Shown piece by piece: positions 6,101-63,250 of a stretch of 64,000 bases of DNA; the first letter of the stretch is position 1, and each line of letters begins with the position of its first letter. The notes under the pieces are model-generated. The model did not search any database, was not told where the DNA came from, and saw nothing but the letters and a program-made list of their open reading frames with translations. Position numbers and translations under genes: made by a program. Origin of the DNA: Liolophura sinensis (lineage: Eukaryota; Mollusca; Polyplacophora; Chitonida; Chitonidae). The DNA lies in contig NC_088296.1 in the NCBI RefSeq assembly GCF_032854445.1, forward strand, positions 8,776,706-8,840,705. Direction: 5' to 3'.

Positions 6101-9100
6101 GGCTAACTCGAGGATAAGTCTGCTAATTGGGTGGATAATACCGCGACTTAGTGAACCAATTAGCACGCTGCATTCTAAATAACGGCACTTCCGATTGGAT
6201 CATTAAACACCGCAGAAAGTCCTCCCCCCTGTGATAAAAAAATGAAGTAAATAAATTATCTTTTATTTATTTTTTTTTTGGTCATCGAAAAATAAAGAAA
6301 CTAAATCAGCTAACTCCGTTCAAAGTACTTTCCTCCAACTTAGTGGCCAATGGGAAACTATTATTTCATATATTAGCATTTTGATTGGTTGGTTAGGTCT
6401 TTCTTCTCTTTTTTTTTCGACGGGAAAATGTCGGTTCCGTAGAAAAACAGATTAAAGCAGACGTTCTTATAACTATTTACAACAGAAACTGGGGGTAGGC
6501 CCATACATAGGCTTGGATACGTTAAAGTTCAAATTGCATGCAAAAAGAAGCGAGACTTAATAAGTAATGGAGGTCAACACTGGCTGGGACCACAATAGCG
6601 GTGAATTGCTTTCGAATGCCAGGGTGTTAGCGATATACAAAAACACTTGTGTTGTATGAACACAAACTTGTGTTCTTTCCAACGAAAGACTTGTGTCATA
6701 TTTGAACAACTTTATCTTACGCTGAATTAAGAAAAGGTCTTGTGTAGAAAGAATTGAAGACAAGATGTGTTGGATGGTACAAACATTACTTGCATGTTTT
6801 TGTTTCATTTCATAACTTACCTCGTTTTGGTTCAACACAAGTTTGTGTTATATCATTTTGTAACCCAAACATGTGTTCTCCACATTTATTTAACACATGT
6901 TTGTGTTAGGATAACACATTTCTGTGTTGATTGAATGAAAATAACATTTGTTGTGTTAGATTAAACAAAAAGGTATTTTTTTGTATGCAGCCGATTCGAA
7001 TGCAGCTCCCTCTGCTTCGATTGCGGTTTTCGGCCAGTTTGTGACAGTTCATGTATGTAGCGAAAATAGAAGGCAAGAAAGAAAATTCTTGGCCCAAACA
7101 CTGTTTATCATTTAGTCATGCGATCGGTTTTGTTTTCAGTGACGGGTTTTCCGATCGTCTACTCTGTGATACTCGTCACCATTGCAGCTGTATTTTACAC
7201 CACCATCGTAAGCACAACATAATACTTAAAAGAGAGGTTAAGATACTTCTCCACGGGATACGAGTACGATTTGTGTGCGTGAGTTTAGGCGAACTCGTGT
7301 CGCTACAGCGGGGAAATGTTAAGCTACTCGAATTTCACGATTTGTGTTCTGCAAATAAATTATTTATTTATTTGATTGGTCTTTTACGCCGTACTCAAGA
7401 GTATTTCACTTATACGACGTCGGCCAGCATTATGATGGGTGGAAATCGGGCCCGGGGGAAACCCACAACCATCCGCAGGTTGCTGACAGACCTTCCCAGG
7501 GGCAAATAAATTAGACAAACTCTCCATTTTCATGAAGTCACTGGTGATATATATTAAGAATGGCGCACAGCTGAATAATGTTTACATGTTTACAGCATGG
7601 AAAAAGCTTGAAAACTGCGGGACGTACGCTATATGATATATCGCTATCGCACAAGGCTACATGCATAAAATACATACAGTGGAAAAATTACATTTTCTTA
7701 GCTTAACTTCCACATGTTGGAAGTAAAATTCAATACTTTCGACAGCCTATTGCTTCATGAGTATGTTGTTTTCACTTTTATTTCACGCTCAATCAGATAA
7801 AACCCCCCAATATTGACTCGGAAATGCAGTACGAGTAAGTATCGTTCAGCTCGTAAAAAAAAGAGCAGATCGTGTGACCTAGATTTGCCAAACCTGACGT
7901 CGTACACAGATAACTACGAGGTCACTCGTTACTCGTAGGTCGTTTAGGTGTATCTTAACCTCTTTAATATCTACTAAATATCAGCGAATTCATATTATGT
8001 AAGGTTTTTCCACCTTGCACCACTGGGAAGACATTTATAAAACCTCTTAAATAATATCGCTTCGGTGGCTTAATGGTTTAAGCGTTCGCCTCGAAGTAGG
8101 AAGACCTCTTGATCAAACCCGTCTCGCCCTGCCAAAGGAAGGTACAGTATATGTACACGCACGTAATGGCTCCTCGTCGTCATATGGCTGAAAAACTGTA
8201 CACTTAAGTCATATTTATCGCAAACGATGTTTACTAGGTTAGAGTGGTGTAATTTTTGAGAAAAGTTAAGAAAAATCGATTGATCCTTCCGTCCCTACTC
8301 CCCTCCACCCCCCACCCATCGAAAGGTCGGCAGATTTGACGCCACAATGGGGATTTGCTATATTTGTGTTCTTTGGTCAGTGATCGAAATGCATGCATAT
8401 AATAGTTCATAAGTGCATTTTGAGTGAATGTTTTCTTTTTATCAGGGAGGGATAAAAGCTGTGATATGGTCAGATGCTCTACAATTCATCATTATGCTGA
8501 TGGGCATAATGGCCGTCGTCATAGCGGTGAGTAGCACATTTCAAGGTCGACATCAGCATCTATCTGTACCCCTCATATTGTGCAAGGAGGCATCAGAATA
8601 TATCAGCACTGCTCCTGTAGCATAAGCAGACATCAAAATCTATCTGTGCCACTTCTGTAGCAGAAACATATGTCAGAATCTCTCTGTTTCACTCCTGTAG
8701 CATAAGCAGACATCCGAATCTATCAGTATCGCCCCTGTGGCATAAGCAAACATCAGAATCTTTCTGTTTCACTCCTGTGGCGTAAGCAGACATTTGACTC
8801 TAACTGTATCACGTCTGTAGCAGAAACTTACGTTGGAATCTCTCTATATCTATCCTCTACTAGGGTAAGCAGACATCCAAATCTATATGTATCACCACTG
8901 TAACATAAGCAAACATCAGAATCTCTCTGTATCACTCCTGTAGCGCAAACAGACATCAGAATCTACCTGTACTACATCTGTAGCGTAGTCAGACGTCAGA
9001 ATCTCTCCGTATCACTCCAGCCGTGTACTCGGGCATCTCTCTGTTCCACATCACTAGTGTAAGCAGAGACCAGACATCAGGATCTACGTCTACCACTCCT

Positions 9101-12100
9101 GTAGCGTAATCAGACATCAGAATCGCCCCGTATCACTCCTTTAGTTTAAGCAGTCATAAAAAGTCATTAAAAACACCATCAAAAACGTCCACCGTAAGCA
9201 GACTTCACAATCCACGTATCTCTTTGCGGTATATAACATGTTGTCACTCTGCATGTCAAGATGTGTGACATTTGAAAACTGACATCTGCGTAAGATCTTT
9301 GATATAACTATCTTAAGAAAACATAAAGCGATGATCAATTTTTACATCTTGATTTTCATTCAGAGGAATTATTATACGTTGCTTTAAGGCACAGTATCAA
9401 AAAGCATGAGATAAATTGTTACATAAGCAAAGGATAGTTACGGACAGATACGATTTTGAACACAGTGTTATTCCAGCATCTGAAGGAAGGTGGCTAGAAT
9501 ATTGTAAGACATTGGAGGTTTTGCTACAATCGCTTCCATTCTGAACACTCACTTTTTTGCGTAGGGTATAATTGCTGTTGGTGGAGTGGGATCTTTTCTT
9601 CATTATCTGGAGAAAGGTGGCCGGATAAAATTATACGAGTAAGTAGATGCCTACATCATTTTGCGTTTATTTTGCCCTGGTCAGTAACTAAGCGAGTTAA
9701 TCTGTAAATTGGCTCACAAAGTCATAAATTCCTAAATCACAGTTTCCGCCTGCATATGTGTACACAAACATAGCTAAAAACTCTTCCCTTTTTTCAGCTG
9801 CTTTACAACATGTGTTAAGCTGCCGTAATTAATTACCTTCATCACTCAATTTTTTGTTACAGTTTCAATCCTGATCCGCGCACGAGGCACACCTTCTGGA
9901 ACCTCATTGTAGGAGGCTCCATACGGGCGCTTGGGCTGGGAATAAACCAATCGTCTGTTCAGCGTATCTCATCTATGAAGACATTGACCGGAGCTAAAGT
10001 GTAAGTCAGGATGGCCGATATACACTTTAAGTTTTATTCTAGTGCTGTCTCACTGAATGGCCGTACAGAATACACCAGATATGACACCTTTCTAAGAAAC
10101 AGTAACCTGAAACTGGCATTTGAAAAAAGGCAAAAAATACTGGCTACCGTCATATACAATTTATGCCACGTGAAATATATCGGTGTCAAATAAGAATTTT
10201 TACATGTAGACCCTAAATGGAGTGGATAAATCAATCACTCAATCAATTAATCTTGTTCATGTACCCACAGGGTGATGTTGTTGACGTTTCCTGGGTTCTT
10301 CTTGTTCTCTTCTTTGGCGTACTTAGAGGGACTCATCGCCTACTCGTATTTCGCCCACACCCACTGCGATCCCCTCGGGGCCAAACTAGTGACTAACCCA
10401 AATCAGGTTAGCTGTACATGTATATATTGCATGATTAAATCTGTCATTTTGCAAAAACGTTTTAAGCGTTAAACGTTTACTTTACACATCCATTATTTAT
10501 TGGATGTTTGACATCCGGGTCCATGCTAGTAATAAATATTATGAATATTTAGACACATGCAGTTACATGTTACACAGTTACAATATGACAAAATGACAGC
10601 AGGCCTTGTTCCACAGGCTGCCTGTGGTCATTTGCCAATTATCACACTGTCGTCAGTGTTCTTGTTTAACCCTTCGTAGTAGTCTTTCATATTGCAAACG
10701 TTTATGCTAATCTGACATCGGATATTCTCAACTATGCACGGTCTTTCAGCACCCTGCAGGTGGTCATGGGTTTCCCCCACGCTCGGTTCCTTACTTGCCA
10801 TCGGTAAATCGTCTCAGTGAGGTAGCACTAGATAAAAGAGCGGTGGAAATATGTCCTGCAACAAGGAGGTACACGTTCATGCTCTCTAGGGGCTCTTTCG
10901 TCGTCATATTACTGAAAAATTGCTAAGTACGACGTTAAACGTCAAGCACTCACTCACTCACTCATGAAAGGCAAAAGCTTTGAAACGAAAGGGACTGTTT
11001 AGCTGAATGCATTTAGCTGACTGATTTATGAAAGAGCGGTGGAAATCCGTCCTGCAACAAGGAGGTACACGTTCATGCTCTCTAAGGGCTCTTTCGTCGT
11101 CATATTACTGAAAAATTGTTAAGTACGACGTTAAACGTCAAACACTTACTCAATCACTCATAAAAGGCAAAAGCTTTGAAACGAGAGTGACTGTTTAGCT
11201 GAATGCATTTAGCCGACTGATTTAATAAAGTCTCATCAATAAAGCCCCATTATGTAGAATGAAACACTGTTTTAAGATCATATATGTCTTGATGTCATAT
11301 AACATGTTACTGACTCCAAATTTGAGTTACCTTCCCTTTCTGATTTTAGAAATAATTAATTTGACATTTTTTTTGTTTTCTTTCCAGATTCTGCCTTACT
11401 TTGTGATGGAATTGTTTAGAAAACAGCCGGGTTTGCCGGGACTTTTCTTAGCGTCATTGTTCAGCGCGTCTCTAAGGTAAGAATGTGTACGATTAATGAG
11501 TCATGCGCCCTCAAACATTACTCAAACATGGCGGAGTGTGAATGCTGTGCGCAGACTTTGAATAAGATTCTACACAATTCATTCTATTTCTCAATCGATA
11601 GTGTCTATGGTAAAATGGTTAGAACGCCGGGAAACCTGACATCAAACCTGTGTTGGATCCTTCCAGGGGTGTTTGGTGCTCAACACTGAGAGGTCAGAGC
11701 AGGGAAGTAGGACTTGTTGGCCCAGTGTTAGTGCAATATAACTGAGGCGTGCTGTCATGTGGTGTTTTCGGCATGATATTCCAGTAGCGGCAACATGGAC
11801 TCGCCTTGTCACAAGAACACAAAGTATATATCCACACACCTAATGACTTGTCGTCAAATGACTGAAAAATTGTTAAATATAAGCGTCATGTCCGACATTC
11901 GTATACCATTTGTAGTCCGTAAAGGGCGTTCCAAGTCGATAATCGCAAGATCCATATCCAAAACAACGTTTAACACTAACTCCGAAAGACAAAGGTATGT
12001 AAGAAATTATACCAATAAGAAATACGCAGCAAATGTTCTCAGCCAGTGAATGGAATCAGTATGCAAATCGCGTAGTGTATAGGTTGTCCGTAATCAATAT

Positions 12101-15100: not shown

Positions 15101-18100
15101 CAGCTGGGCTAACATGAATGGGTTGGCAGCTGGTAATTGGGGTTCTGTCGAATCTCGCGCATTTGTAATGTTTTTTCAGTTCAACACCAAACAGTGCTGC
15201 AGTTCCGCAGTACAACTTTCGAGAACAGGTTATTGTTTCTGGTTGTGAAGAAGGTAGATATATAAAGGGTCGTTGTTCTAATATAATTTGAAACTATTTT
15301 GACCTGATATGTGATGGAATTGTGTATTGGGGGAGACCATAGTAGAGACTTATAACCGTTGTTTACCTCTTTGTTGGAGTCAATTCTGACACTTCCTCTG
15401 TTGAAAAAAAAAACATGCGCTGGTATACGATATTAATCCAAGACGACTACAAACAAAACAAAAAAAATACCCTATGCAAAAGTGTGTTATTGGTATATAA
15501 TGCATCAATTTCAATGTAATCCAAACTACACTGTCACTTAAAGGGTATCCAACTTGTATTAAATGATTATTCCAGGGAGCCATCTCCGGGTCCATTGGTG
15601 CTTTCGCTTTGGTTTTCTGGATTGCTATGGGTTCCAGTTTTTCACCGCTGACTGTCAAGACCCCATACCTTCCTGCTGCGCCGATTGACCAATGTCCCGG
15701 TTATAACAACTCTGCAGGCAATCTAACAATGGCTGCCTGGAATGCCAGCGACTATATGTCCACGGGAGTGCCCGTAGCGGAGAATGACATATCCGTGGAA
15801 CTGCCTGAAAAGATATACAGGGAATACTCAGGCATTGAGTAAGTATGATATGGCATGTGTGCTGGACGGGAATATGAGGTCCTTAGTATTTCTCTTAAGC
15901 ATAGAGAATGTATCTAACTCAAAGAAAGGTATAGAGAATGCATTAAAAATTTACAAGACCGGGTGTTGGTTTCCGGTTGAAATTGCCCTGTCGAAATATG
16001 ATGTTATATGCAGGCTTTTAGGAGGCTATATACCAGTCGTCAGCATCGTGATTTGCACACCAGGACAACTATTGACTCCCATGAAAAGTGTTTAAATTTT
16101 TTATCCAAGGTGTTAACTGAGATTACCATAAACGTATGTTGACATGAATCCAATTTACGTCATTCTAATGTAGCTTTCTATTTCTGATTCCAGCTCCTTC
16201 CTGTCCTACCTTTACTCACTCTCCTACATGTGGTACTCTCTAATAGGGATGATTTTGACAGTGGCGTTTGGTCTGATTGTTAGCCATGCAACAGGTGAGG
16301 GAGAATCGTTTCCAAGAAGTTCTTTACATGTCAAATGTCCGATCGACCATAACTAATGTGTAGATTTACTTGTAGGAAACATAAAGTGATGAGGCTAAAA
16401 TCGCTCTACTGTATCCATTTTTGCGTAACTTCCTGTACGTAAAGTTGATTTATCAGATGTATTTGGCAAATGGCAGAGTAGATGAAAAATTATTACAGTG
16501 CGGCGCAAGTTCTGTATAATATTTAGTTTACTGTATTTTGTCCCACAAAATTTGTCCATCTTTGATTCGCTAAAGCGTAGTTCTCATGTGATATCACACC
16601 CTTCGGTCCAGAATTGGATGGTTCAATTTAAAAAGCAGATAATATATTTTGAGTTAGGAAGAGCGGTGGAATCACACTTAAACTTTAGTTTTTGACGTGG
16701 TTGGTAACTTAATGACTTAAAAGATAGACCTTTAATGAAAAAATCTTCCTGTACCATGAATTGGGTGATGTTAAAGCAGCAGAAAGCCCAATATCGCGGT
16801 AATCGTACCACTCATATATGCACATCAGCTTAAAAGGCAAAACGGTGTTCGGGTGGCAAGCGGAAACAGTTAATACTTGGGGTTATAGAAATAACTCACA
16901 CCTGACCGGATAACACTAATAACATGGCGGCGCATTCGATTGTCTCAATATGCGCGATTTAGTTTACTTTGAACAGCGATATCTCGGTTGTGCAACATTA
17001 CACACACAATAAAAAAATTATTTTAAGGTATCCACGTTGATACGTCCCTTATGGTACTGGTGGTTTTCTTCATAGGACTCTGGTTCGTATCAGTAAAAAT
17101 CATAGAATATGGCGTAACACAACAATCCAATACATAAATATATGTATAATGAGGGTGAGTTTTTTTTTTAAACAAGACGTTGTAAGGGAAGAAGATCGCG
17201 GTTAAAATTTAAAAAAAAGGCGATTAATGGAGATCAAAGAAAAAAGAGGCACATGAAGGTGAAACAACCTCACGAAGAAATGTATATCGATAAGCATATT
17301 TATGGAAACAAGTAAATATTGTACATGTTATAGTTGTTATATTATTATAGCCAGCCTCCCTCAGGGCAATCCCGTATGTCCTTTGACACATTTTCATTCC
17401 TACAGGTGCCAACCCGCCAGGAACAATTGATCCGAAGTATATCATACCAATATTCGACCAGCTTTTCTGCTATTTACCAAGTTCTGTCCGGGATAAACTT
17501 CGATACGGCAAAGACTTTATACCAAAAGATGAGGTAAAATACAGAAGGCTTAAGCTCCCCCCACGATCCTTGGATTCTTGCCGTAATGGTAGATTTCAGT
17601 ATTATTTCACGCCTATCAAAGCAGCTGAATATCCCGTATTTGTTAATTTATTTATTTATTTGATTGGTGTTTTACGCCGTGCTCAAGAATATTTCATTTA
17701 TATGACGGCGGCCAGCATTACGGTTAGATGAAAGTCGGTAGAGCCCGGAGGAAACCCCGTAATTGTTTTTGGGCTTTAGAAAAATGGGAGAAGATCAAAA
17801 TTTTGCTGCCACTGTTTTAATCAACAAGAGCTGATAAATTTTCCTGTGTTTGTTGGAGGAGGTAGAGGAATTTGATCTAATTTTTTAAAAATGTGTTTGC
17901 GTTTGCTACATGACGTAAAAGAAGAACCGATTAAAACTCTTGTCCCCTTTGTTGTAGGACGTGAAGGAAGAGGAGTTGATTAAAGTCACTGATGACGGAG
18001 ATATGTATCTTATAGTGGAGCCCGAGCCGGTCGTGGAAACAGACTTACCTAACGACACCAAATCCTTAGTGGATGAACAGAGATCTGCACTCCTGGAGCA

Positions 18101-18128
18101 AAGGATTATTAATGGCAAAATAGAATAA
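145..18128 (+). CDS. SLC5-family Na+/solute symporter, SMVT/SMCT-like (copy A, 16 exons)
   Basis: Exons: 145-498, 1268-1336, 5273-5324, 7140-7207, 8446-8526, 9565-9638, 9863-10000, 10271-10406, 11388-11476, 12432-12544, 13820-13890, 14471-14557, 15576-15838, 16194-16294, 17406-17533, 17958-18128. Every junction is GT-AG and the frame stays open for 664 residues (human SMVT is about 635). Seen: first helix near residues 13-36, TAEYLLGNRKQK at 42-53, GGIKAVIWSDALQ from 182, NPDPRTRHTFW in exon 7, PGLPGLF at 338-344, hydroxyls S352, S354, T355, S357, S358 matching the Na2-site stretch of NIS, three N-glycosylation sequons in the exon-13 loop, acidic cytoplasmic tail. Family knowledge: plasma-membrane Na+-driven import of vitamins, monocarboxylates or iodide. 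The C-terminal DPKYI..YLPSSV..KLRYG favours the SLC5A6 branch, but substrate is unproven. The start at 145 is chosen over an in-frame ATG at 91 because copies B and C begin at the same MAD..Y.PRGFHW, and acceptor-like CAGs lie between the two ATGs. Confidence 0.9.
700..787 (+). repeat. SINE-1 tail fragment
   Basis: Ends with taaaacaccaatcaaataaa and an (ATAA)n tail, the 3' end of the tRNA-derived SINE seen complete at 33495-33762. The head is missing. Lies in intron 1 of copy A. Confidence 0.7.
815..1010. repeat. Block shared with 25705-25890
   Basis: Both contain GTTATCAATTTTA.CCAATCA, a CTGACGTCA or TTACGTCA site, and end in GTGGGATACGAGT. Here in intron 1 of A; the mate is in intron 2 of B, so a dispersed element is more likely than plain exon-flank homology. 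Confidence 0.5.
2095..2353. mobile_element. MITE-like element, family M1
   Basis: Terminal inverted repeats: ACACTCAAAAAATGAATC at the left and the complement of ACACTAAAAAAAGTAATC at the right. About 259 bp, AT-rich, no coding capacity, rich in internal AACAGA/TCTGTT words. Intron 2 of A. Confidence 0.6.
2786..3048. mobile_element. MITE-like element, family M1, second copy
   Basis: Ends TTCTCAAAAGATTACTCTGT at the left and, on the other strand, TACTCTCAAAAAAAATATTC at the right. Shares GTGATGCTAGAA and the TTCTGTTA words with 2095-2353. Confidence 0.6.
3558..3784 (-). mobile_element. SINE-1, near full length, diverged
   Basis: Tail ttatttatttgattggtg at the low end and a degraded tRNA-like head at the high end. 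The proposed internal promoter is weakened by substitutions. Confidence 0.75.
4231..4284. repeat. 18-bp repeat, three units
   Basis: Three tandem copies of AGTTCGATCTTGTTAAGT, the first with two differences. In intron 2 of A. Confidence 0.8.
4635..4770 (+). mobile_element. SINE-1, internally deleted
   Basis: tRNA-like head CCTCCGTGGTTCAGTTGGTT is followed after a few dozen bases by the tail piece gccgccgtatatgtgaaat; the middle is missing. Confidence 0.7.
4833..5173 (+). mobile_element. SINE-1 with duplicated 3' end
   Basis: A full element from CCTCCGTGGTTCAGTTGATT to ccaatcaaaa, then poly-A, then a second copy of the last 65 bp (atgctggccgctgtcgtg to the AAATA tail). This looks like a SINE inserted into, or recombined with, another SINE tail. 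Confidence 0.75.
5441..6424. mobile_element. Foldback-type element with long inverted arms
   Basis: Left arm about 5441-5830, right arm about 6149-6424, each the diverged complement of the other. Matched words include CCGTCGAAAAA, TTAACCAAC..ATCAAAATG, GAGTTAGCTGATTTAATTTC, and GCCGTTATTTAGAATGCAGC at the inner ends. The left arm carries an internal direct repeat of about 100 bp (5558-5630 and 5655-5735), which explains its extra length. No reading frame of note inside. Intron 3 of A. Confidence 0.65.
6623..6962. repeat. Cluster of AACACAAnnTTGTGTT palindromes
   Basis: At least six short palindromic words built from AACACA and TGTGTT within 340 bp, such as AACACAAACTTGTGTT and AACACAAGTTTGTGTT. 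It resembles the inside of a MITE, but clear terminal repeats were not found. Confidence 0.4.
7351..7505 (-). mobile_element. SINE-1, 3' part
   Basis: Tail and central body only; it stops at CTTCCCAGG, before the tRNA-like head. Intron 4 of A. Confidence 0.75.
8056..8215 (+). mobile_element. SINE-3 (tRNA-derived) copy
   Basis: The tRNA-like head has GGTGGCTTAATGGTTTAAGC as an A-box region and GATCAAACCC as a B-box region. The body carries GTACACGCACGTAATGGCTC and CTCGTCGTCATATG, shared with 53875-54178. Confidence 0.6.
8545..9160. repeat. 40-bp minisatellite in intron 5 of copy A
   Basis: About 14 diverged units built around GCAGACATCAGAATCTATCT and GTATCACTCCTGTAGCGTAA. It begins just after the exon-5 donor. 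The same unit forms the array at 28725-29480 in copy B. Confidence 0.85.
10833..11230. repeat. 198-bp direct tandem duplication
   Basis: 10833-11030 and 11032-11230 match closely from AGAGCGGTGGAAAT to GCATTTAGC.GACTGATTTA. Inside each unit is GTACGACGTTAAACGTCAA, a SINE-3-like tail. Intron 8 of A. Confidence 0.85.
11690..11880 (+). mobile_element. SINE-3-related fragment
   Basis: Shares GTCATGTGGTGTTTTCGGCA, CATGATATTCCAGTA and the GACTGAAAAATTGTTAA tail with 53875-54178. The head is not clear. Intron 9 of A. Confidence 0.5.
13976..14252 (+). mobile_element. SINE-1, old and diverged copy
   Basis: Keeps GAGTTCAAGTCCAGCTCACG and an AGTAAATAAATTCATAAA tail, with a C-rich insertion (CACCCCACCCCACCCCC) in its body. 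Intron 11 of A. Confidence 0.6.
14405..14420 (+). pseudogene. Possible exon-12 relic in copy A
   Basis: ATGGGACCAACTAAGG, followed by a tract that aligns with the sequence after the copy B exon-12 relic (gtacttgtataatgtatgt against gtatgtctatataatatatgt), sits 50 nt before exon 12 of A. It reads as the same duplicate with most of its middle deleted. Short, so uncertain. Confidence 0.4.
17645..17760 (-). mobile_element. SINE-1, 3' fragment
   Basis: ttatttatttgattggtgtt followed by the acgccgtgctcaagaat body; truncated after GGAAACCCC. Intron 15 of A. Confidence 0.75.
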
Positions 18129-28533: not shown

Positions 28534-28724
28534 TGATTAACAAAGTTTTGAGAAAGGGAGGCCTAAAATCCTCCAAAAACCTGCCAGTTTTATGTCACAA
28601 TGGGGCTTTTTAAGATGTCAGAAATTTTGTATTCAGGGTATTATACCAATGGTCAAAGTACAAGAATGTAACTACGAAGGCTCCGTTGAAAATGATTGAC
28701 AGAAGTCAAATCCTTTCGGTACCA

Positions 28725-29480
28725 TATATCTAGCGTAGACCTATCTATACCCTATGTATAGCGTAAGCAGACATCAGAACCTATCTGCACCATACTTATG
28801 ACGGAAGCAGACATCAAACCCTTTTGTACCATATATCTAGCGTAAACAGACATAAAAAAACTTTCTGTACCATATATCTAGCGTAAGCAGACATCAGAAC
28901 CTAATCTGTACCAGATATCTAGCGTAAGCAGACATAAGAACGTTTCTGTACCATATATCTAGCTTAAGTAGACTTTAGAACCTATCTGTACCATATATCT
29001 AGCGTAAGCAGACATCAGAACCTATATGTACCATGTATCTGGCATAAGCAGACATCAAAACCTTTTGTATCATATCTAGCGTAAGCAAACATCAGAAAAT
29101 TTCTGTATCATGTATCTAGCGTGACCAGACATCAGAGCTTTTGTGTACTACATATCTAGCGTAAGCAGACATAAGAACGTTTCTGTACCATATATCTAGC
29201 GTAAGCAGACATTAGAACCTATCTGTACCATATATCTAGCGTAAGCAGACATCAGAAACTATCTGTACCATATATCTAGCGTAAGCCGACATCAGAAACT
29301 TTCTGTACCATATATCTATCGTAAGCAGACATCAGAATCTATCTGTACCATACATCTAGCGTAAGCAGACATCAGAAACTTTCTGTACCATATATCTAGC
29401 GTAAGCAGACATCAGAACCTATCTGTACCATATATATAGTGTAAGCAGATATAGAACCTTTCTGTACCATAAAGGCCTGT
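28725..29480. repeat. 40-bp minisatellite in copy B
   Basis: About 18 units of AGCGTAAGCAGACATCAGAA plus CCTATCTGTACCATATATCT, more uniform than the homologous array in A. Exon 5 should lie just before it but cannot be recognised. Confidence 0.95.
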
Positions 29481-32751: not shown

Positions 32752-33147
32752 GTCTTCACATATATACATGGTTGATGTCCAATATGGCATCGAGCATTAG
32801 TGTGACTGATTGTGCATGCTCTGCCCAGAATTTGGGAAAGAGTGTGACTGATACACAGTTCATTCTTTTCGTCAACGATTTCACATCATCACTGGTCATT
32901 CTGTAATTGTCTATCTTCATCTCATGCCATGCAGCCATCTACTAGCATATACTGAGATTTGTATATCATATTCTTATACATTTGAAAACTTTAATTTAAT
33001 TTTCAAATTTTGATTGTCAGGTTTACATTGTTACAAGCGTTTTGCTGTTAGATGGTATCATTTTCATGTCATAAGCCATAACTGTTTTCTGGTTTCCTCA
33101 CATGTCTCAGAACGACATGAATGAAATATACTGTCAATGCCCATTGA

Positions 33148-33378
33148 TTTATTTGATATATTTGATTGGTGTTTTACGCCGTACTCAAGAATATCTCACT
33201 TATACGACGGCGGCCAGCATTATGGTGAGAGGAAACCGGGCACAGCCTGGGGGAAACCCACGACCATCCGCAGGTTGCTGACAGACCTTCCCACTTACGA
33301 TCGGAGAGGAAGCCAGCCTGAGCTGGACTTGAACTCACACTGATGAGAGATCATTGCCCATTGAGCTAAACGATGTGT
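33148..33378 (-). mobile_element. SINE-1 copy, head truncated
   Basis: Well-kept tail and body (TTATACGACGGCGGCCAGCA, GAAACCCACGACCATCCGCA). It ends in TTGAGCTAAACGATG, a decayed head. Intron 9 of B. Confidence 0.8.
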
Positions 33379-33494
33379 TATACCAGGAAAGAGTGATCCA
33401 CATACTATAGCGAAAATTCAGGTCATATGGACATGTACCAATTCCCAGGCGGCGTTGATCACAAACCACCAAAGAATCAAGAAAGAGCGTGAAG

Positions 33495-33762
33495 TATTTA
33501 TTTATTTATTTGATTGGTGTTTTACGCCGTCCTCAAGAATATTTCACTTATACGACGGCGGCCAGCATTATGGTGGGTGGAAACCGGGCACAGACCGGCG
33601 GAAACCCACGACCACCCTCAGGTTGCCGGCAGACCTTACCACGTACGGCCTGAGAGAAAGCCAGCATGAGCTGGACTTGAACTCACAGCGACCGCATTGG
33701 TGAAAGACTCCTGGGATACTACGTTGCGCTAGCGCGCTAACCAACTGAGCCACGGAGGCCCC
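33495..33762 (-). mobile_element. SINE-1, best full-length copy
   Basis: Read on the minus strand: head GGGGCCTCCGTGGCTCAGTT with GGTTAGCGCGCTAGCGCAAC, B-box-like GAGTTCAAGTCCAGCTCATG, a body with CAACCTGAGGGTGGTCGTGG, and a tail CACCAATCAAATAAATAAAT. About 268 bp. The head resembles a tRNA with A and B boxes for RNA polymerase III, so this is a tRNA-derived SINE needing LINE enzymes in trans. Confidence 0.9.
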
Positions 33763-36094: not shown

Positions 36095-36540
36095 CAAAAA
36101 TGTCATGGGTTGGTGCTTGACTCATTGCCAAACTTCACACAAAATGTCATGGGTTGGTACTTGACTCAGCGCCAAACTTCACACAAAATGTCATGGGTTG
36201 GTGCTTGACTCAGTGCCAAACTTCACACAAAATATCATGGGTTGGTGCTTGACTCAGCGCCAAACTTCACACCAAATGTCATGGGTTGGTTCTTGACTCA
36301 GTGCCAAACTTCACACAAAATGTCATTGGTTGCTGCTTGACTCAGAGTCAAACTTCACACCAAATGTCATGGGTTGGTGCTTGACTCAGCGCCAAACCTC
36401 ACACCAAATGTCATGGGTTGCTGCTTGACTCAGTGCCAAAGTTCACACAAAATGTCACTGGTTGCTGTTTGACTCAGCGTCAAACTTCACACCAAATGTC
36501 ATGGGTTGGTGCTTGATTCAGCGCCAAACTTCACACAAAC
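36095..36540. repeat. 44-bp minisatellite, about ten units
   Basis: Unit AAAATGTCATGGGTTGGTGC plus TTGACTCAGCGCCAAACTTC and ACAC. Intron 11 of B; no counterpart seen in A or C. Confidence 0.95.
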
Positions 36541-39906: not shown

Positions 39907-40034
39907 GCGCCGACCCTCCAGGCACTGTTGACCCGAAGTATATCGTACCGATATTTGACCGGCTTTTCTGCTATTTACCAAGTTCTGTCCTGGACAAACT
40001 TTGCTACGGCAAAGACTTCATACCCTGAGAGGAG
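39907..40034 (+). pseudogene. Copy B exon 15 with in-frame stop
   Basis: Length and splice sites are normal. TGA at 40026-40028 replaces the lysine codon of FIPKDE, removing the cytoplasmic tail encoded by exon 16. The sequence is closer to copy C than to copy A. Confidence 0.88.
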
Positions 40035-40164: not shown

Positions 40165-41100
40165 AGTAACAAGTGAAAATCTTATGTTTACTGAAAGATG
40201 TAATCAGGATATTGATAAAAAAAATCTTGCTGTATTTCTTTCAGGACGTCATAAAATTGTGGATGAAAATCCTGTGTGTGTGTGTCCTGTGTTTGTTTCA
40301 GATGTTAAGAAACAGAGCATATAAAATCTTGGTGTGTTTGTTTCACATGTTAAGAAACAAGGCATATAAAATCTTGCTGTGTTTGTTTCACATGTTAAGA
40401 AACAGAGCATATAAAATCTTGCTGTGTTTGTTTCAAATGTTAAGAAACAGGGCATATAAAAATCTTGCTGTGTTTGTTTCACATGTTAAGAAACGGCATA
40501 TAAAATCTTGTCGTGTTTGCTTCAGATGTTAAGAAACAGAGCATATAAAATCTTGCAGTGTTTGTTTCAGATGTTAAGAAACAGGGCATATAAAATATTG
40601 TAATGTTTGTTGCAGATGTTAAGAAACAGAGCATATAAAATCCTGTTGTGTTTGTTGCAGATGTTAAGAAACAGAGCACATAAAATATTGTTGTGTTTGT
40701 TTCAGATGTTAAGAAACAGGGCATACAAAATATTGTAATGTTTGTTGCAGATGTTAAGAAACAGAGCATATAAAATCCTGTTGTGTTTGTTGCAGATGTT
40801 AAGAAACAGAGCACATACAATATTGTTGTGTTTGTTTCAGATGTTAAGAAACAGAGCATATAAAATCTCGCTGTGTTTGTTAAGAAGCAGGGTAAATAAA
40901 ATCTTGCTGTGTTAGTTGCAGATGTCAAGAAAAGGTGCTAAAAAATCTTTCTGTGTTGCTGTTGTAAAGAAACAGGGTATATAAATTCTTGCTTTGTTTG
41001 TAGCAGTCAAGAAAAGGTGCTAGGAAAGTCTTGTGTTTGTTGCAGTTGTTAAGAAACAGGACTCATAAAATCGTTTGTTATACCCGTAACAGTAGGGAAA
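40165..41100. repeat. 45-bp minisatellite derived from the exon-16 splice acceptor
   Basis: About 15 clear and several decayed units of GATGTTAAGAAACAGAGCAT, ATAAAATCTTG and TTGTGTTTGTTGCAG. The unit equals intron-15 end plus the first bases of exon 16 (compare GACGTGAAGGAAGAGGAGTT, ATTAAA in copy A). Being 45 bp it stays open in several frames, which gives spurious long frames on both strands. Confidence 0.85.
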
Positions 41101-41277
41101 CCGATTAAATATCTTGCTGTGCTTGTTACAAGACGTGAAAGAAGAATAAATGATTATGGCTTAAGACCACATCGGCAATATTTCAGTCAAGAAGATCTGA
41201 TTATGAATACTATTGTGTTTGTTGAAGACCGCAAAAGAAAAATAGCCGGTTCAAATTCTTGTTTTGTTTGTTGGCAG

Positions 41278-41553
41278 GGCGTAAAGGAAGAGGAGCTGAT
41301 TAACGTCACCGATGACGGAGATATGTATCTAGTAGTGGAGCCTGAACTAGTCGTGGACAGCGGCTTGCCCAGCAATGCCAAATCCCTACTGGTTGAACAG
41401 AATTCTCCGCTCCTAGAGAAAAAACTGTCGATGGCAAGACAGAAGATTTTCCAGGGCCTCATATACATGTATAATAACACTTGGTGTCCGGCGACGAAAA
41501 ACTTGATTTGTTGTTCAAAGGGTGGTCCTGGATATTTTTGGCCCTCTGTCTAA
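41278..41553 (+). pseudogene. Copy B exon 16, terminal frameshift
   Basis: Follows copy A closely (VKEEELI.VTDDGDMYL.VEPE) after a ttggcag acceptor. It shifts frame near the natural end at about 41430 and runs to a later TAA at 41551-41553. Confidence 0.8.
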
Positions 41554-49600: not shown

Positions 49601-52600
49601 AAACACTCCTTGATCGGGATCCGAAATTAGATCTGCAGCCTTGACTATTTGCTTAGTGTTTACCCCCGTGTTCAAGAATTTCCGCCTTGTATGACCAGGT
49701 GTTTATGGTATGTTCAGGTTTATGGGTGGAGGAAACCAGAGTACCCGAAATAAACCACCGACCTCTGGCCATGCACGTGACAAACCTCTTGACGCAAAGC
49801 TTCGCTCTGCCTCTGTTCGATTTCCTCTCACCAAACCATATAATGCTGGAAAATATTCTTCAATACTGCTTCAAACACCAATGAAATAAATGAAACAATT
49901 CTCAGCTGTACCTTTAGCCACAGCTGAAATTTCCAAGACTGGATTCGAACGCGAGGCATCAATGATCAAAATGGTCAAAGCGTCAGGCCAGCGCTAAGAT
50001 CACAATCAAAGCTTCATTGATCATGTAAGATTTATCTATAATATTTTATCTAACAGAGGCAAATAACTCAGTACGAAACAAAAACTCCATTGGGCAGTTA
50101 CTGGTTGATATTGATCGGTAAATGAACCAAGAATATAAAATCATAGAATATGCTCCACTGAATGCATAAATCAACCAAGGAATGGTTGAGGGCAATATAC
50201 CAGCCAACTGACACGAACCAACTAGCTGAACAGATCAACCACTAAGCAACCAATAACCTTTGTTTTCAGTGCTTGGTTTCCCGATCGTCTACTCAGTGAT
50301 ACTCGTTACTGTTGCCGCAGTTTTCTACACAACAATTGTAAGTACATTTAATATCAGATCTTCAAATCAAATAAATAAATAAAATAAATAAAAATTTCAG
50401 GTCAGTAGTTGGCAGGATTTTTGAAAGAGTATCCGTCGTTAAGTAAGGTATTAAACACTTGAAGTGCAGCCGCTAAATGGGTTTTTGCTTTGTTTTCTTT
50501 CTTCGACAGGGTGGTATCAAAGCTGTGATATGGTCAGATGCTCTGCAGTTCATTATAATGCTTATGGGTATATTGGCCGTCGTGATAGGGGTGAGTTTGT
50601 TGACGATGAAGCCAATGTTTAAAAAGAGACACCCGCAACAACAAAAGCGATATCCATAAACTGTGTGAAATATCACATTGATGACTGGGGAAATTTACAA
50701 TATTTCGCCGGTGTATAGATCATAAAAGCAAATCTAACAAGTAAACAAACTCAAATCCTATTATTTGCGAAAATAAACAGCATGAAAGGATATCATTTTG
50801 AAGAGTCGGGGCGTGGGTGGGCGGTGAGAGGATGTGGGAGGAAATACGCGCCCCAACGTAAAGTTGCTTGAAAAGGTCTTTGCAATTTAATATGTTTATT
50901 TATATGAATACGACCCGCAACGAACAGTGGGGTAGAATAGAATATTTACACAACATGGGTCGGAGACCAACTTTTTTAAGTGTTGTAATAAATCTAGGAT
51001 TTTAAGTTCTATAGGCTAGGTGACCGAGATGGTTAGCACGCCAGCGCGGCCCAGTGAGTTTCGTTAGTCCATTTCATACTCCCTCTCCGGCCGTGTTGTG
51101 GGAAGGTATCATAGCGACCTGCGGATCGTCGTGTGTTTTGGCGAGCTTACCCGAGTTCCTCCCACCATAGTGCTGGCCGCCGTCGTGTCAGTGAAATATT
51201 CCTGAATACGGCGTAAAACACCAATGGAATAAATATATAAGCTGTGCTTGCTTTTGTTTTGTATGTTTGTTTTGATGTAGGGAACAATTGCTGTAGGAGG
51301 AGTGGGGCCTGCTTTCCATTATCTTGAAAAAGGTGGCCGGATAAAATTATACGAGTAAGTAGATTTACATATCCCCTTTACGTTCTTTGTGTCTGCCAAC
51401 CCGTTATCAACTGAACTGCTTACCAGTGTAAATTTTTCACAAACTTCAAAATACTTCAAAAACTTCGAAATACTCAACGAAAATATAAACGCAGGAAGCA
51501 ATTTTACTTTGTTTTGTTTTTTTCTCAGTATTAAATAAAGTAATATTTTAACATTTATGGTTGGCATAAGTATTCCTTATCAATTTTGACTTCAATTTCC
51601 ATAAGATTTTCACATTCTAGGGCAATAAGCCAGGAGTGAGATCGCTAACCACAGTTCACGCTCTTCGTGACGCTAACTGTGGACATACTCGACACTGAGT
51701 GCCGTGAATGGTGTTTTCTGCTTCGTTCGATTATATTTTTGTTGAGTGTATGTATTTTACTTGACAAGAGGAAACTAACCAGGTACCTGACCGATCAAAC
51801 CTAAAGCCACAGATCGGCGAGAAATGTATATCAGTCTGTGACCTATGAGGTAAATCAATGCTTTGGATGAGACCTTTTCTTCTTTATGGCCACCGTCTGT
51901 AGTTACATGTAAACCATGTTACAGGTGTATTTTGGATTCGTGTTTCTTGATAAATAATGCTCAGTCATAAGTACCAGTGCTTCAAAACTTTACTCTGCGC
52001 CCTTTGGACGCCGTTGCAGGCTTTATCATTTTCATTAAATTATGTCGTGCATGACATACACGTGTACATATTAATATTTTTATCTGTGTAAAAGTGTACA
52101 TTTTAGAAGATTAATGGTGTTTATGTAGGGTTCTATTGCACTTTTGGCTGCGTTTTGGGGTAACATTTCACTCTTGATACCTCTGAGTATCTTTCGCCTT
52201 GGCTTTTGTTACAGCTTTTTGGGGTAACATTTCACTCTTGGTTCCTCTGATCTCGCCGTGGCTTTTGTTACAGTTTCAACCCTGATCCGCGAACGAGGCA
52301 CACCTTCTGGAACCTCATTCTCGGGGGCACCATACGGGCGCTGGGTCTTGGAATCAACCAATCCTCTGTCCAGCGTATCTCATCGATGAAGACATTGTCC
52401 GGGGCTAAAGTGTAAGTGAGGATGACATTCGCAATCTATTAATGAAAACATCTGTTTTAAGCATTGAGTGCGAGTGAGTGCTTGGGGTTTAACGTCGTAC
52501 TCAACAATTTTTCAGTCATATGACGCTGAAGGAATCCTTAGGGCGCATGTACGTGTAATGTGCTTCCTTGTTGCAGGGCGGATTTCCACCTCTCTTTTAT

Positions 52601-55600
52601 TTAGTGCTGCTTCGCCCCGCCCGAGGCATTATACTGATACGGGTCAACCACCTCCTTGCACTATCCTCTTCATGCTGAACGCCAAGCGAGAAAGTTAAAA
52701 CTTCCTGTTTTAAAGTCTTAGGTATGACTCGATCAAGGATTGATCCTGGATCTACCGGTCCCGAAGCGGACGCTCTACCAACTGTGCTATCCGGGCCGGT
52801 TTTTAAGCACTGAATGTTGTCGCATTACTGCTGCATGTGTTGGCCGTCAGACCGCCGTAGGCAAATTTGGATGATACACTGGCTCAAATTATAACTCTTG
52901 GGTAATAACCGGACAAATAAACCCATATAATGTTGATATAAATTTATCTATAGCTACCATCCGCAGGTTGTTGCAAGACCTTCAAATGTACGGCCGGAGA
53001 GGTGTCGGTATTAAAGCTGATGATATCTACATTCAAAATTTTTCATTTAAAACATTTACAAACAACCGTGGCAAGTTGATCAAAAGACGCCAACGTTTCA
53101 TTCAGTAAATCAAGCATTCAATAAACCAATTAAATACCAATCGATGAATTATTTAAGAAATAAATGTGTCGAAATTGTGTAAGAGTTGAGATAACTAGTT
53201 CTACTGGACATCTCCCAGCAGAGCTTGAGGGAGCTGATAATACTTACATGTATCACATCAAATGATTAACTTCAAAGAAGACACCAAAATCAGGTATAAA
53301 ACAGAGGAAAGACCATTTAACACTGTCCACGAAAATAGTTTGATTTTTCTGTTAAAATTTTTTTAGAATTTTTCTACACTGGTTTTAGAACCTCAGAATC
53401 TACCTTGGGCTATAGTGACTCAGAAGGTCACCTGACGTCACATACATATTTTTGGCCTGACGTCACATACATATTTTTGGCCTGACGTCACATATATATT
53501 TTTGGGCGGAAGCAGTTCGTTTCAAGCACCATTCGGCCAATGCAATCACAAATATCAATATTGAATGATGAGATTTAGCAGTCTACGCATGCTTGTTTAT
53601 TGCATGGACAGTGTTTAATGGTATTTCATCTTACATATAGTTTAGTTGTTCCTTTGCCTTTAAACAGTTTGTCAACAAACTCTTCCCTTAATCAAATGAT
53701 CAGTTATTTTTCATTCACAGAGTGATGTTGCTGACGTTTCCCGGATTCTTCCTCTTTTCGTCTCTGGCCTTCGTACAAGGCCTCCTCGCCTACTCGTATT
53801 TCGCTCACACTCACTGCGATCCACTTGGAGCCAGTCTGGTGACTAACCCAAATCAGGTTTGTTAATTATAGACAGCTTCGTTGGCTTAATAGTTAGAGAG
53901 TCCGCCTCGAGCCGAGAGACATGGTGTCAAACCTGGGTCGGTTCATAGCAAATACTTAATAATGGTATTTGTTGCTGCTTCGCTTGGCGCTCAGCAGTAA
54001 CAAGGAAACTGGAGTGGAGGTTCCGGTGTCAGTGTAATGTGATTGGGAGGGGTGTCATGTCTGGTGTCTTGGGCATGATACTTCAGTACCTACAGTATAG
54101 ATATAAACACACGCAATGACTCCTCGACGTCGTATGACTGAAATATTGCTAAGTACGACGTTAAACCCAAGCATACGTATGTGCTAATTGCCAGTGTTGT
54201 TTTCATTGATTAATTCGTCCATTGCTTCCAAAAGCGTTACCAAATAAACAATAAACGGGTCCAATCTACGTTTCAGTCATAAAGCATAAAGGATGCTTTG
54301 CAATGTTTAATGGATCTTGAACAGGTATGGGTATCAGTGAATGTATATTTATTTGAACTGTCTGGTTTTTCGGGCCGTATCCCAGAATATTTCACCTATA
54401 CCTCAGTGACCAGCATTATGGTGGGAGGAAACCATGTAGAGCCCGGCGGAAACTCACGGGCATCCACAGGTTTTTGGAAAACCTTTCCACGTACCTTAGG
54501 AGAAATATAATTAAATAAATCAATCATTGTGTTGCACATGTATTTTTGTCATCTCCCATGTTTATAATGGCACCACAGCAAAAAGTGCTTAATGGCATCA
54601 ATACACCAAGACGTCCTTAATGGCATCAATGCAACAAGAAGTGCTTAATGGCATCATTACAGCAAGAAGTGAGTAGTGGCATCAATACAGCAAGAAGTGT
54701 TTAATGGCGTAAATACAGCAAGAAGTCTTAAATGGCATCAATACAGGAATAAGTGCTTACTGACATCAACACAGCGTCATTTGTGATTTACGTCGGCCAT
54801 AAGTGACGTCATGACCTCCTGCGCCATGTAGTACATGTACACAATTGGAGGGTCACAAAAGTTTGCTTACATATCACTATTTAAAGGCAATTTTATTCTG
54901 CAAATGTATCATAATTTAGAAAACCCATCCAGATTACATGGACTCCTCTTATACAACTGTTTACCTCCAACGGTATTATTTAGCTAATGACAACTCAATC
55001 GGCTCTTCTCAAGAAGCCCACATGGCCGCGTGGTAATCTAAAAAATTCCCTGTCCAAGAATGATATTAATTCAATCTACTTTTTTTCTTTTTCTTTCCAG
55101 ATTCTGCCTTACTTTGTGATGCAATTGTTTAAAAAACAACCGGGTTTGCCGGGACTTTTCTTGGCATCATTGTTTAGCGCATCTCTTAGGTAAGTCTGTG
55201 TGATATTATGAGGATTAGCCCTAATATTTTAAAACATTTATCTCCTAAATGAACACAATTACTGCCTGTACATCAGTCATCATGGCAAAGACGCCACGTC
55301 ATAAAGAAATGTAGAGGCGTATTTATAACTACAGCATGTTATATTCGCCTAAGTTTATGACCTTCTGTACGTAATCTACATTTGATAAATTCCCCATTTA
55401 TTAATCTAGTGATATAAAATATTTTTAACACGTATTGTAGCAACACCTATTGAATGATCTACATCTTTTTTAAAAGTAGTGTTATTTGGAAATACAATAA
55501 CAAATTCTACTGAAGTAAAATTAATTTTTTTTATACTTCAATCTCTGTTTTCAGCACACTTTCTTCTGGATTCAGCGCCATGTCGGCCATTCTCTGGAGT

Positions 55601-62154: not shown

Positions 62155-63250
62155 GAATATTTGGAATGCAAAAAAAAACTATTTGGAATAGTTTTGTAAT
62201 TGTGGGTATTTGAGACAACCTCTTGGTATATTTTCTCTTTGCGTAAAAATGTTATAAACGAGGATGTACTTATGTTTTATAGGTATATTTGTACTAGAAA
62301 TACGTCTTTTCAGCTAATAAATTGCGTTCTACCTGGAATTTGATCATATTTTGTGTTTAACATATTCATTAATATTATCATCATTCAGATTATGTTTATG
62401 TGTTTGATTTATTTTGGTTAATTGATTGGTGTTTTACGCCGTACACAAGAATATTTCACTTATACGACGACGGCCAGCATTTTGGTGGGAGAAAACCGGG
62501 AGAAATCCACGACCATCAGCAGGTTGCTGACAGACCTTACCACTCACGGTCGGAGAGGAAGCCAGTTTATGTGTTTGGATATAAATAATAAAATGACATT
62601 TAAATAAATTTATTAGACATGTATCATATTCTTATTTAAAACGTTATTGTGCAGTGACGATATGTACCAAGAGATGATTCCAAACACATTTTCAAATATT
62701 CTTTTCTGCTGAAAGGATAAAAACAAAGGATAACGTAAAGGCAAAAGGGTGATAAAAAATCTTGTATATTGTATATGAAAATCTTGCTTAGTTTGTTTCA
62801 GGGCGTAAAGGGGAAGGACTGTTGCAAATCTTGTTGCGTTTGCTTCATGACATAAATGGAAAGCAGCCGTTGGATATCATGTTACGTTTGTTTCAGGGCC
62901 TAAAGTGAAAAGAGCGATTGGAACCTATTTTTTTCTTTTTTTTTCTCTTTTTTTTTTGCAGGAGGGAAAATAGGAAGAGCTGTTTAAAGCGTAGTGTAGA
63001 GTTATAGAAAAGAGCTATAAAATCTTGTGTTTTTGCAGGACGTACTACAAAAAACATGGTAAAAATCGTATTGTATTCGTTTCAGGACGTTTGTGAGGAG
63101 CTTGTTAAAGTAACCGACGACGGAGATATGTACCTGGTGGTTGATTCCGATCCAGCCATGATAACGGTCATACCTAACTGCACCAAAAACTCACAGGCAA
63201 AACAGAACTCCGAGGTTGTTGAACGACAGACTCCTAATGGCCAAATATAA
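46657..63250 (+). CDS. SLC5-family Na+/solute symporter, SMVT/SMCT-like (copy C, 16 exons)
   Basis: Exons: 46657-47010, 48126-48194, 49392-49443, 50270-50337, 50510-50590, 51281-51354, 52274-52411, 53721-53856, 55101-55189, 55555-55667, 56081-56151, 58131-58217, 59299-59561, 60132-60232, 61268-61395, 63086-63250. All introns are GT-AG; the first 15 exons have exactly the lengths and phases of copy A. The joined frame gives 662 residues. The same family marks are present: GGIKAVIWSDALQ in exon 5, NPDPRTRHTFW in exon 7, PGLPGLF and the LST..SS sodium-site stretch across exons 9-10, and sequons NTT, NLT and NAS in the exon-13 loop. Differences from A include MSLVGYFFCIII in helix 3, KTPYLP changed to RTPFLP in exon 13, and a C-terminal tail that diverges strongly after VTDDGDMYL. 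A YAG acceptor ending at 46642, 14 nt before the ATG, implies a 5' non-coding exon upstream. Probably a functional plasma-membrane importer with a related but not necessarily identical substrate. Confidence 0.9.
47056..47155 (-). mobile_element. SINE-1 remnant
   Basis: AGTTTTACGCCGTACT and CTACCATCCGCAGGTTGC are recognisable; the rest has drifted. Intron 1 of C. Confidence 0.5.
48263..48458. mobile_element. MITE-like element, family M1, third copy
   Basis: Ends TATACTCAAAAAATAATCTG and, on the other strand, TACATTAAAAAAATTAATGT. Internal TGTTGTGTTGAATATGACA resembles TATTGTTGAATATGACAGAA in 2095-2353. Intron 2 of C, the same intron that holds two copies in A. Confidence 0.55.
49156..49247 (-). 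mobile_element. SINE-1, 3' end
   Basis: Seven TTTA units, then GATTGGTGTTTTACGCCGTA and CTTATACGACGGCGGCC; cut off there. Intron 2 of C. Confidence 0.8.
51012..51235 (+). mobile_element. SINE-1 copy, diverged head
   Basis: Head AGGCTAGGTGACCGAGATGG then TTAGCACGCCAGCGC, body with CGACCTGCGGATCGTCGTG, tail CGGCGTAAAACACCAATGGA. Ends about 45 bp before exon 6 of C. Confidence 0.75.
51471..51750. mobile_element. Inverted-repeat element, family M2
   Basis: Ends TACTCAACGAAAATATAAAC at the left and, on the other strand, TACACTCAACAAAAATATAA at the right. About 280 bp. It has an inner hairpin, CCACAGTT at 51651 against AACTGTGG at 51684. Intron 6 of C. Confidence 0.7.
52152..52273. repeat. Tandem duplication of the exon-7 acceptor region, copy C
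   Basis: Two units of about 60 bp, each with TTTTGGGGTAACATTTCACT at the start and GGCTTTTGTTACAG at the end. The second acceptor (ending 52273) is the one that keeps the frame; the first ends at 52214. Confidence 0.9.
52474..52800 (-). mobile_element. SINE-2, tRNA-derived
   Basis: The minus strand starts with a tRNA-like head: TAGCACAGTTGGTAGAGCG as the A-box region and GATCCAGGATCAATCC with a B-box-like core. The body runs to GACGTTAAACCCCAAGCACT at the low-coordinate end. About 327 bp. Different head and body from SINE-1. Intron 7 of C. Confidence 0.75.
53431..53507. repeat. 25-bp triplicate carrying three TGACGTCA palindromes
   Basis: Unit CCTGACGTCACATACATATT plus TTTGG, three times. 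Each has a perfect TGACGTCA (53433, 53458, 53483), the consensus site of CREB/ATF factors. Intron 7 of C. Regulatory use is only a possibility. Confidence 0.8.
53875..54178 (+). mobile_element. SINE-3 copy
   Basis: Head AGCTTCGTTGGCTTAATAGT with TCCGCCTCGAG and GTCAAACCTGGG; tail GCTAAGTACGACGTTAAACC. Starts about 20 bp after exon 8 of C. Confidence 0.6.
54343..54512 (-). mobile_element. SINE-1 remnant
   Basis: CCAGAATATTTCACCTATAC, CAGCATTATGGTGGGAGGAA and ACCTTTCCACGTACC match the SINE-1 body; head lost. Intron 8 of C. Confidence 0.65.
54566..54778. repeat. 28-bp minisatellite, about seven units
   Basis: Unit TAATGGCATCAATACAGCAA plus GAAGTGCT. Intron 8 of C. Confidence 0.9.
55678..55937 (-). 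mobile_element. SINE-1, nearly full length
   Basis: From tttatttatttcatttgttt to a head reading CTAACCACTTGGCGACGGAG, with most of the body present. Starts 10 bp after the exon-10 donor of C. Confidence 0.75.
56640..57240. other. Unclassified insertion-like segment in intron 11 of C
   Basis: No counterpart in introns 11 of A or B. Carries ATACAAATACTAAAGTACTT twice, 50 bp apart (from about 56725 and 56772). Two short overlapping minus-strand frames (83 and 89 codons) have no recognisable domain. Could be part of an older transposon. Confidence 0.35.
57300..57500 (-). mobile_element. SINE-3-related fragment
   Basis: The minus strand matches the body of 53875-54178 (GTGTCATGTCTGGTGTCTTT, GGTATGATACTTCAGTA, GCGCCCAACGCTAAAAGG region). 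A shorter relative lies at 14690-14780 in the same intron number of A. Confidence 0.5.
58672..58808 (+). mobile_element. SINE-1, 3' half
   Basis: CAGCAACCTGCGGATGGTTG through AAACACCAATCAAATAAATA and an (AAAT)n tail; 5' truncated. Intron 12 of C. Confidence 0.85.
60790..61175. mobile_element. MITE-like element with CACTGTAA ends
   Basis: TTCACTGTAATTTAAT at the left and, on the other strand, TACACTGTAAGAATTG at the right. The inside is full of TTTACAG/CTGTAAA words. About 386 bp in intron 14 of C, no coding sequence. Confidence 0.55.
62052..62172. repeat. (TA)n palindrome flanked by inverted arms
   Basis: GCATTCCAAATATATA at the left and TATATATTTGGAATATTTGG then AATGC at the right, around about 45 TA units. 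The right arm has TATTTGGAA duplicated. Intron 15 of C. Confidence 0.9.
62195..62720. repeat. Dispersed AT-rich element D1, copy 3, split by a SINE
   Basis: GGGTATTTGAGACAACCTCT, AACGAGGATGTAC and TTTTCAGCTAATAAATTG match the copies at 22770 and 39150. The SINE-1 at 62406-62570 lies inside it, and AAATAAATTTATTAGACA resumes after. Confidence 0.65.
62406..62570 (-). mobile_element. SINE-1 nested in element D1
   Basis: TTGATTGGTGTTTTACGCCG through GGTCGGAGAGGAAGCCAG; head absent. Insertion inside D1 shows D1 is the older of the two. Confidence 0.8.
62770..63085. repeat. Decayed repeats of the exon-16 acceptor in copy C
   Basis: At least four spaced pieces resemble the true boundary: TTTGTTTCAGGGCGTAAAGG near 62800, TTTGCTTCATGACATAAATG near 62845, TTTGTTTCAGGGCCTAAAGT near 62893, TTTTTGCAGGACGTACTAC near 63036, before the real acceptor ending 63085. 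Confidence 0.7.

Follow-up and report, generated by a model that had tools for sequence, protein, structure and literature searches.

A minisatellite array apparently derived from a 3' splice site and the start of its exon in a transporter gene family of the chiton Liolophura sinensis

Introduction

Minisatellite-like tandem duplications that span an intron-exon boundary, known as mirages, are described in the available excerpts on amphioxus for the globin genes BflGb6 and BflGb9, with Adh3 also cited (PMC3087553), and for PGBD5 and TnC (PMC3902484). In BflGb6 each unit joins the 3' end of an intron to the 5' part of the exon that follows (PMC3087553). RT-PCR suggested that mirages leave regular splicing undisturbed (PMC3087553). 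According to the same excerpts splice signals are kept in many, though not all, of the units, and inner units are homogenised while those at the edges are not (PMC3087553, PMC3902484). Two further systems bear some resemblance. In human segmental duplications, variable internal tandem repeats are described at exon-intron boundaries (PMC2812944), and the Rogers model, as discussed in PMC3087553, proposes that introns are gained by tandem duplication across proto-splice sites.

Here we describe an array in the last intron of one of three tandem copies (A, B and C) of a transporter gene in the chiton Liolophura sinensis. The window, i.e. the whole stretch that was analysed, comprises 64,000 nucleotides (NC_088296.1, positions 8,776,706 to 8,840,705, forward strand). 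Eight matches to the haemocyanin beta-sandwich family, a molluscan family, lie side by side on contig C8 of the assembly, against 0 of 14 control genomes with a match. As far as the excerpts permit the comparison, the chiton array resembles the amphioxus mirages in that the tandem unit has an intronic and an exonic part across the boundary, in that the AG is kept in part of the units (9 of 14 inner or core units and 9 of 17 worn ones), and in that inner units are homogenised to the exclusion of the edges (mean difference 0.131 against 0.474). It differs from them in its molluscan host, in a unit of 45-48 bp, in the worn remains left in several paralogues of one family, and in the location of the long array in a pseudogene. 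The human repeats likewise consist of minisatellite units at exon-intron boundaries of recently duplicated paralogues, but they are reported to lengthen exons or form novel introns whereas the chiton repeat stays inside an existing intron, and derivation of the unit from a 3' splice site is absent from the description compared (PMC2812944). As in the Rogers model duplication puts extra splice signals into a gene (PMC3087553); unlike in that model no new intron has arisen, and the extra boundaries lie within the existing last intron.

The initial annotation regarded this as an unusual origin for a minisatellite. Unusual it is, but in the excerpts seen the type had already been described as the amphioxus mirages (PMC3087553), and the chiton array is thus a new example and not a new kind. 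No molluscan mirage was present among the literature matches listed, and neither "minisatellite" nor "tandem" occurs in the main text of the chiton genome paper (PMC11068029). Cases in a prawn lectin and an earthworm metallothionein were considered as parallels and rejected since, in the portions available, they describe other things.

Results

The host gene is monocarboxylate-transporter-like. With six joined exons of copy A as the query the best solved relative was SMCT1 (7sl9_A, E 2.6e-53), the Pfam family SSF matched exon 1 below its cut-off (17.9 vs 22.8 bits), and no Pfam family was found in three other exons. The similarity to SMCT1 together with the sub-threshold SSF match places the genes with the SLC5 sodium-coupled monocarboxylate transporters. 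Copy B is broken: it has in-frame stops in exons 1 and 15 and a shortened exon 1, the acceptor AG of exon 7 and the donor GT of exon 13 have been lost, and exon 5 was absent among the matches listed for it. It is this broken copy that holds the long array. The ends of exon 15 in A, B and C (17533, 40034 and 61395) are each directly followed by GT, as the initial annotation had it.

Tandem Repeats Finder (TRF) reported 13.2 copies of a 45-bp unit at 40288-40881 in the last intron of copy B. When at most 3 mismatches are allowed, the unit core GTGTTTGTTKCAGATGTTAAGAAACAG is present at 14 places in the window and in none of 100 shuffles, so that the repeat claimed to precede exon 16 in B is indeed there. 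The limits first given for it, 40165..41100, were right as to location but not as to extent, the array being a little longer when worn units from about 40179 to 41254 are counted. Cut by eye, this stretch yields 14 core and 9 worn units (23 in all), and the full unit set of 34 rows comprised these, 2 worn units from A, 6 from C and the three real exon-16 boundaries (Table 1). Ten of the 14 core units are exactly 45 bp long, and most consist of an acceptor-like end followed by an exon-16-like start. The core is homogenised, the mean difference quoted above coming from 78 core pairs against 136 worn pairs; among the ten units of exactly 45 bp it is 0.108. The counts of retained AG likewise depend on splits placed by eye. 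The exon-16 boundary of copy B itself reads as the final unit of the array.

Table 1. Positions in the window of the array, its worn remains and the neighbouring exons.
Feature	Position	Strand	Remarks
Copy A, 2 worn units and intron end, adjoining exon 16	17838..17957	+	exon-only model
Copy A, exon 16	17958..18128	+	starts DVKEEELIKVTDDGDM...; open to its stop
Copy B, exon 15	39907..40034	+	in-frame TGA is the third-last codon
Copy B, worn units B_u1 and B_u2, 5' of core	40179..40268	+	B_u2 reads TTTCAG-GACGTC
Copy B, core array, B_u3-B_u16 (14 units)	40269..40900	+	TRF and unit list made by eye
Copy B, most recent duplication of a three-unit, 135-bp block	40595..40864	+	132/135 identical
Copy B, worn units B_u17-B_u23 (n=7), 3' of core	40901..41254	+	49 bases (41160-41208) outside any unit
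Copy B, exon 16	41278..41553	+	open frame, stop at 41553
Copy C, about 6 worn units (C_u1-C_u6) and intron end before exon 16	62711..63085	+	
Copy C, exon 16	63086..63250	+	

Two lines of evidence support that the unit joins the end of intron 15 to the start of exon 16, as had been proposed. First, a hidden Markov model built from the three real exon-16 boundaries alone, and hence independent of how the units were cut, was run over the 64 kb. It returned the three exons and then, before the first off-target match at rank 18 (E 1.6), 14 plus-strand matches, each of which lies in the last intron of A, B or C. Six of these 14 have E below 0.03 and the other eight (E 0.05-1.4) are individually weak, so the strength of the result lies in where the matches fall; up to E 10, 5 of 32 matches were off-target. 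Secondly, the same recipe applied to 11 other acceptors of these genes gave a single own-intron match in total (E 8.2), and none of the 11 had an own-intron match better than its best off-target match. Exon 16, rerun in the control script, gave 25 matches in its own introns and 7 elsewhere, and 14 of the 25 beat the best off-target match. The three-row recipe is insensitive to one-copy, mostly intronic duplications and missed the doubled exon-7 acceptor of copy C described below. The acceptors B_E15 and C_E15 were placed one base off; they were kept in the 11-acceptor control and in the boundary scan, and excluded from the acceptor matrix used further on. Units made of intron-15 ends and exon-16 starts thus stand head to tail before exon 16 in the three tandem copies, and we consider the array very probably to be a mirage-type minisatellite.

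Models built from the units of one copy find those of the others. With B units alone the best cross-matches were exon 16 of B (E 0.0015) and C_u2 (E 0.003), and with C units alone they were A_u3 (E 0.0017) and exon 16 of B (E 0.0028). The exon-like halves of the 17 worn units beat all 2000 shuffles against each exon, a comparison that is partly circular given that the units were cut by eye. No single exon-only match in the introns exceeded the best of 200 shuffles, which is why boundary models were used instead. In a plain window scan the boundaries of A and B ranked the last introns high, and that of C ranked an off-target site equal first. Taken alone, the core consensus is moderately exon-like: its score with exon A was reached by 6 of 5000 shuffles, and by 45 of 5000 when the leading G was removed. 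The exon part of a core unit in B starts CAG-ATGTTAAG against TAG-GACGTGAAG at exon 16 of A, and the exon identity of the core is therefore clear mainly by way of the worn units, whose consensus is ATCTTGCTGTGTTTGTTGCAG-GACGTAAAAGAAAAAGAGCTG against an exon-boundary consensus ending GTTGCAG-GACGTGAAGGAAGAGGAGTTGATTAAAG.

Fewer and older units had been noted before exon 16 of A and C. Worn units do stand there, but A has at least two (17838-17890 and 17891-17935) instead of one, and C about five to six (62711-63064). The exon-only model matched A_u3 (E 0.025) and A_u2 (E 1.4) in A, C_u2-C_u5 (E 0.0008-0.026) and C_u6 (E 1.4) in C, and B_u2 (E 0.089) in B; it missed C_u1 and B_u1, the latter being matched at E 1.6 by a B-unit model that includes B_u1. 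A possible extra unit of A near 17800 was drafted and left out of the unit set.

Searched at the protein level, exons 15 and 16 gave 16 matches, comprising A, B and C, a fourth copy D (C2:2947231-2947935, minus strand) and weaker ones elsewhere. D duplicates the 3' half of copy A in inverted orientation, 5.8 Mb away on the same scaffold (C2 ~2946932-2957999), with 95% identity to A over 11.1 kb and 681 of 706 aligned bases identical from exon 15 to exon 16, and it has the same worn units as A. The D-A match extends to the edge of the stretch compared (L042, L043) and may be longer.

At the level of the whole 609-Mb assembly the unit core, with at most 3 mismatches, had at least 14 matches, all of them in the B array, and the reversed control had none; such match counts are lower bounds. 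The DNA search of the genome recovered this array alone, and a dispersed satellite or a transposon-derived repeat, with the unit at many unrelated sites, was looked for genome-wide and not seen. The array was also absent from seven further regions with weaker protein matches (L045-L047, L038-L041), in which the best model matches, at E 0.48 and 0.85, both fell in L045. The former is the last-exon boundary of an L045 gene itself. The latter is a short unit-like match, TTGCAGGACGTC (L045 7114-7103), in the last intron of the other L045 gene, and may be due to chance or be a very old relic. Both L045 genes are distant paralogues with a phase-0 last intron, and their last exons, read by eye, start D-EEL and G-DEL without any array, which hints at an exon that predates the array.

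This bears on whether a minisatellite in the intron, its unit rich in pyrimidines and ending in AG, might have come first, with the acceptor of the terminal exon captured from its last unit. Exon 16 does form the final array unit in A, B and C, three codons at the exon start (VKE) lack a counterpart in the distant paralogues (by eye), and the weak match in the last intron of L045 would fit. However, the repeated exon part contains GAGCTG/GAGTTG (E-L) codons, and the D-EEL and G-DEL exons follow array-less introns. We regard this order of events as quite improbable.

Given that worn units stand in A, C and D, the array is probably older than the gene copies. The units of A, B and C also have a common frame, an AAA-like end followed by an ATCTTG-like start with exon 16 as the last unit, which favors one old origin. 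In unrooted trees the B core formed one group with B_u18 and B_u20 (support 56 in IQ-TREE, 0.74 in FastTree), and the three exons were scattered among the worn units and did not form one group; the units are short and support was poor, and the trees weigh little either way on descent of the units from exon 16 or on a shared origin. The tendency of units to cluster by gene copy in both trees (C_u2-C_u4; the B core) is what would be expected had B, C and A each acquired its own duplication of the 3' splice site once the gene copies existed. Local homogenisation predicts the same clustering, however, and the common frame, the finding of A_u3 by the C-unit model and the ACCGATTAAA common to A_u3 and B_u21, the counterpart of which, read by eye, is TTGATT in the exon of A and CTGATT in that of B, argue against separate births, which we judge unlikely.

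A single old origin would thus be preferred. Probably some 48 bp spanning the 3' splice site (about 21 intron and 27 exon bases) were duplicated in tandem, through slippage during replication or through unequal exchange, at a time when A, B and C had yet to diverge. The array would afterwards have decayed in A, in its duplicate D and in C, and in B a new round of amplification and homogenisation would have followed, in 45-bp and 135-bp steps.

The initial annotation had the array of B expand greatly after the reading frame was lost, and our estimates do not favor this. Synonymous distances over 443 codons, one stop-bearing codon having been dropped, are 0.33 (A-B), 0.53 (A-C) and 0.49 (B-C), and omega is 0.28 on the B branch (bootstrap 0.15-0.47) as compared with 0.11 on A and C. 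If the latter value represents the constrained rate, we estimate that roughly one fifth of the B branch was neutral, corresponding to ~0.03 substitutions per site. The mean divergence of 0.108 among core units amounts to ~0.058 per lineage, and amplification in B therefore probably began before or around frame loss, although the upper bootstrap limit allows the two to be equal. Only the last 135-bp doubling looks younger, about as young as the neutral phase of B.

Other repeats occur in the same genes. Directly before exon 7 of copy C (52150-52273) an acceptor region of ~64 bp is doubled, both copies ending TTTTGTTACAG, and this acceptor (z 8.0) came top of the 63 boundaries scanned. This may be another case, within one gene family, of a duplicated splice acceptor, and hints that such duplication recurs. 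Related 40-bp arrays lie at 8549-9157 in A, in the intron after exon 5 and ~22 bases past the donor, and at 28700-29471 in B; D also matches them. A donor-side mirage was considered for the 40-bp array by exon 5 of A and rejected for now, the A_E5 donor lying outside the best 14 of 63 boundaries. The A_E5 acceptor reached z 4.5, and the follow-up alignment met just the query's own upstream bases. Further arrays are found in B (44 bp x 10.1 at 36097-36539) and in C (28 bp x 7.2 at 54575-54775). A dispersed short element, GTTTTACGCCGTRCTCAAGAATATTTCA..., which we take to be SINE-like, has many copies (17638-17757, 33142-33713, 62400-62565 and others), also inside intron 15 of A and C.

Discussion

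Repeated 3' splice sites upstream of a terminal exon could act as putative decoy acceptors for the true one. Scored with an approximate matrix built on 29 acceptors from the same genes, many AG-bearing units reach the level of true acceptors, and C_u4, C_u5 and C_u6 (10.5, 16.7 and 12.7) stand above the true site of copy C (9.1), so that competition among acceptors is plausible in silico. Read on in phase 0, the AG-bearing units of C (C_u2, C_u4, C_u5 and C_u6) run for 3 to 17 codons to a stop and that of A (A_u2) for 9; use of these units would consequently replace the C-terminal tail.

Could the array then be a working device, its alternative acceptors tuning or diversifying the C-terminal tail of the transporter? 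Beyond the scores, the inferred 48-bp ancestral unit would be open in phase 0 by hand translation. However, 5 of the 14 core units and 8 of the 17 worn ones have lost the AG, the units of C and A that keep it lead to early stops, and the long array lies in the broken copy. The amphioxus RT-PCR result, as excerpted, points the same way (PMC3087553). Such a device is highly unlikely in our view, and most likely the array has no selected function.

With the array and its remains, the choice that the spliceosome makes between acceptors resembling one another can be tested in a natural setting. The remains that sister copies share make the birth, decay and re-amplification of an array traceable within one genome. 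We offer as a tentative and rather doubtful generalization that arrays of 3' splice sites recur in chitons as they do in amphioxus, are long inherited by gene duplicates and feed decoy or alternative terminal acceptors.

In conclusion, in the excerpts seen mirages were reported from cephalochordates, and a clear case in a mollusc suggests that the process that forms them is not confined to that group.
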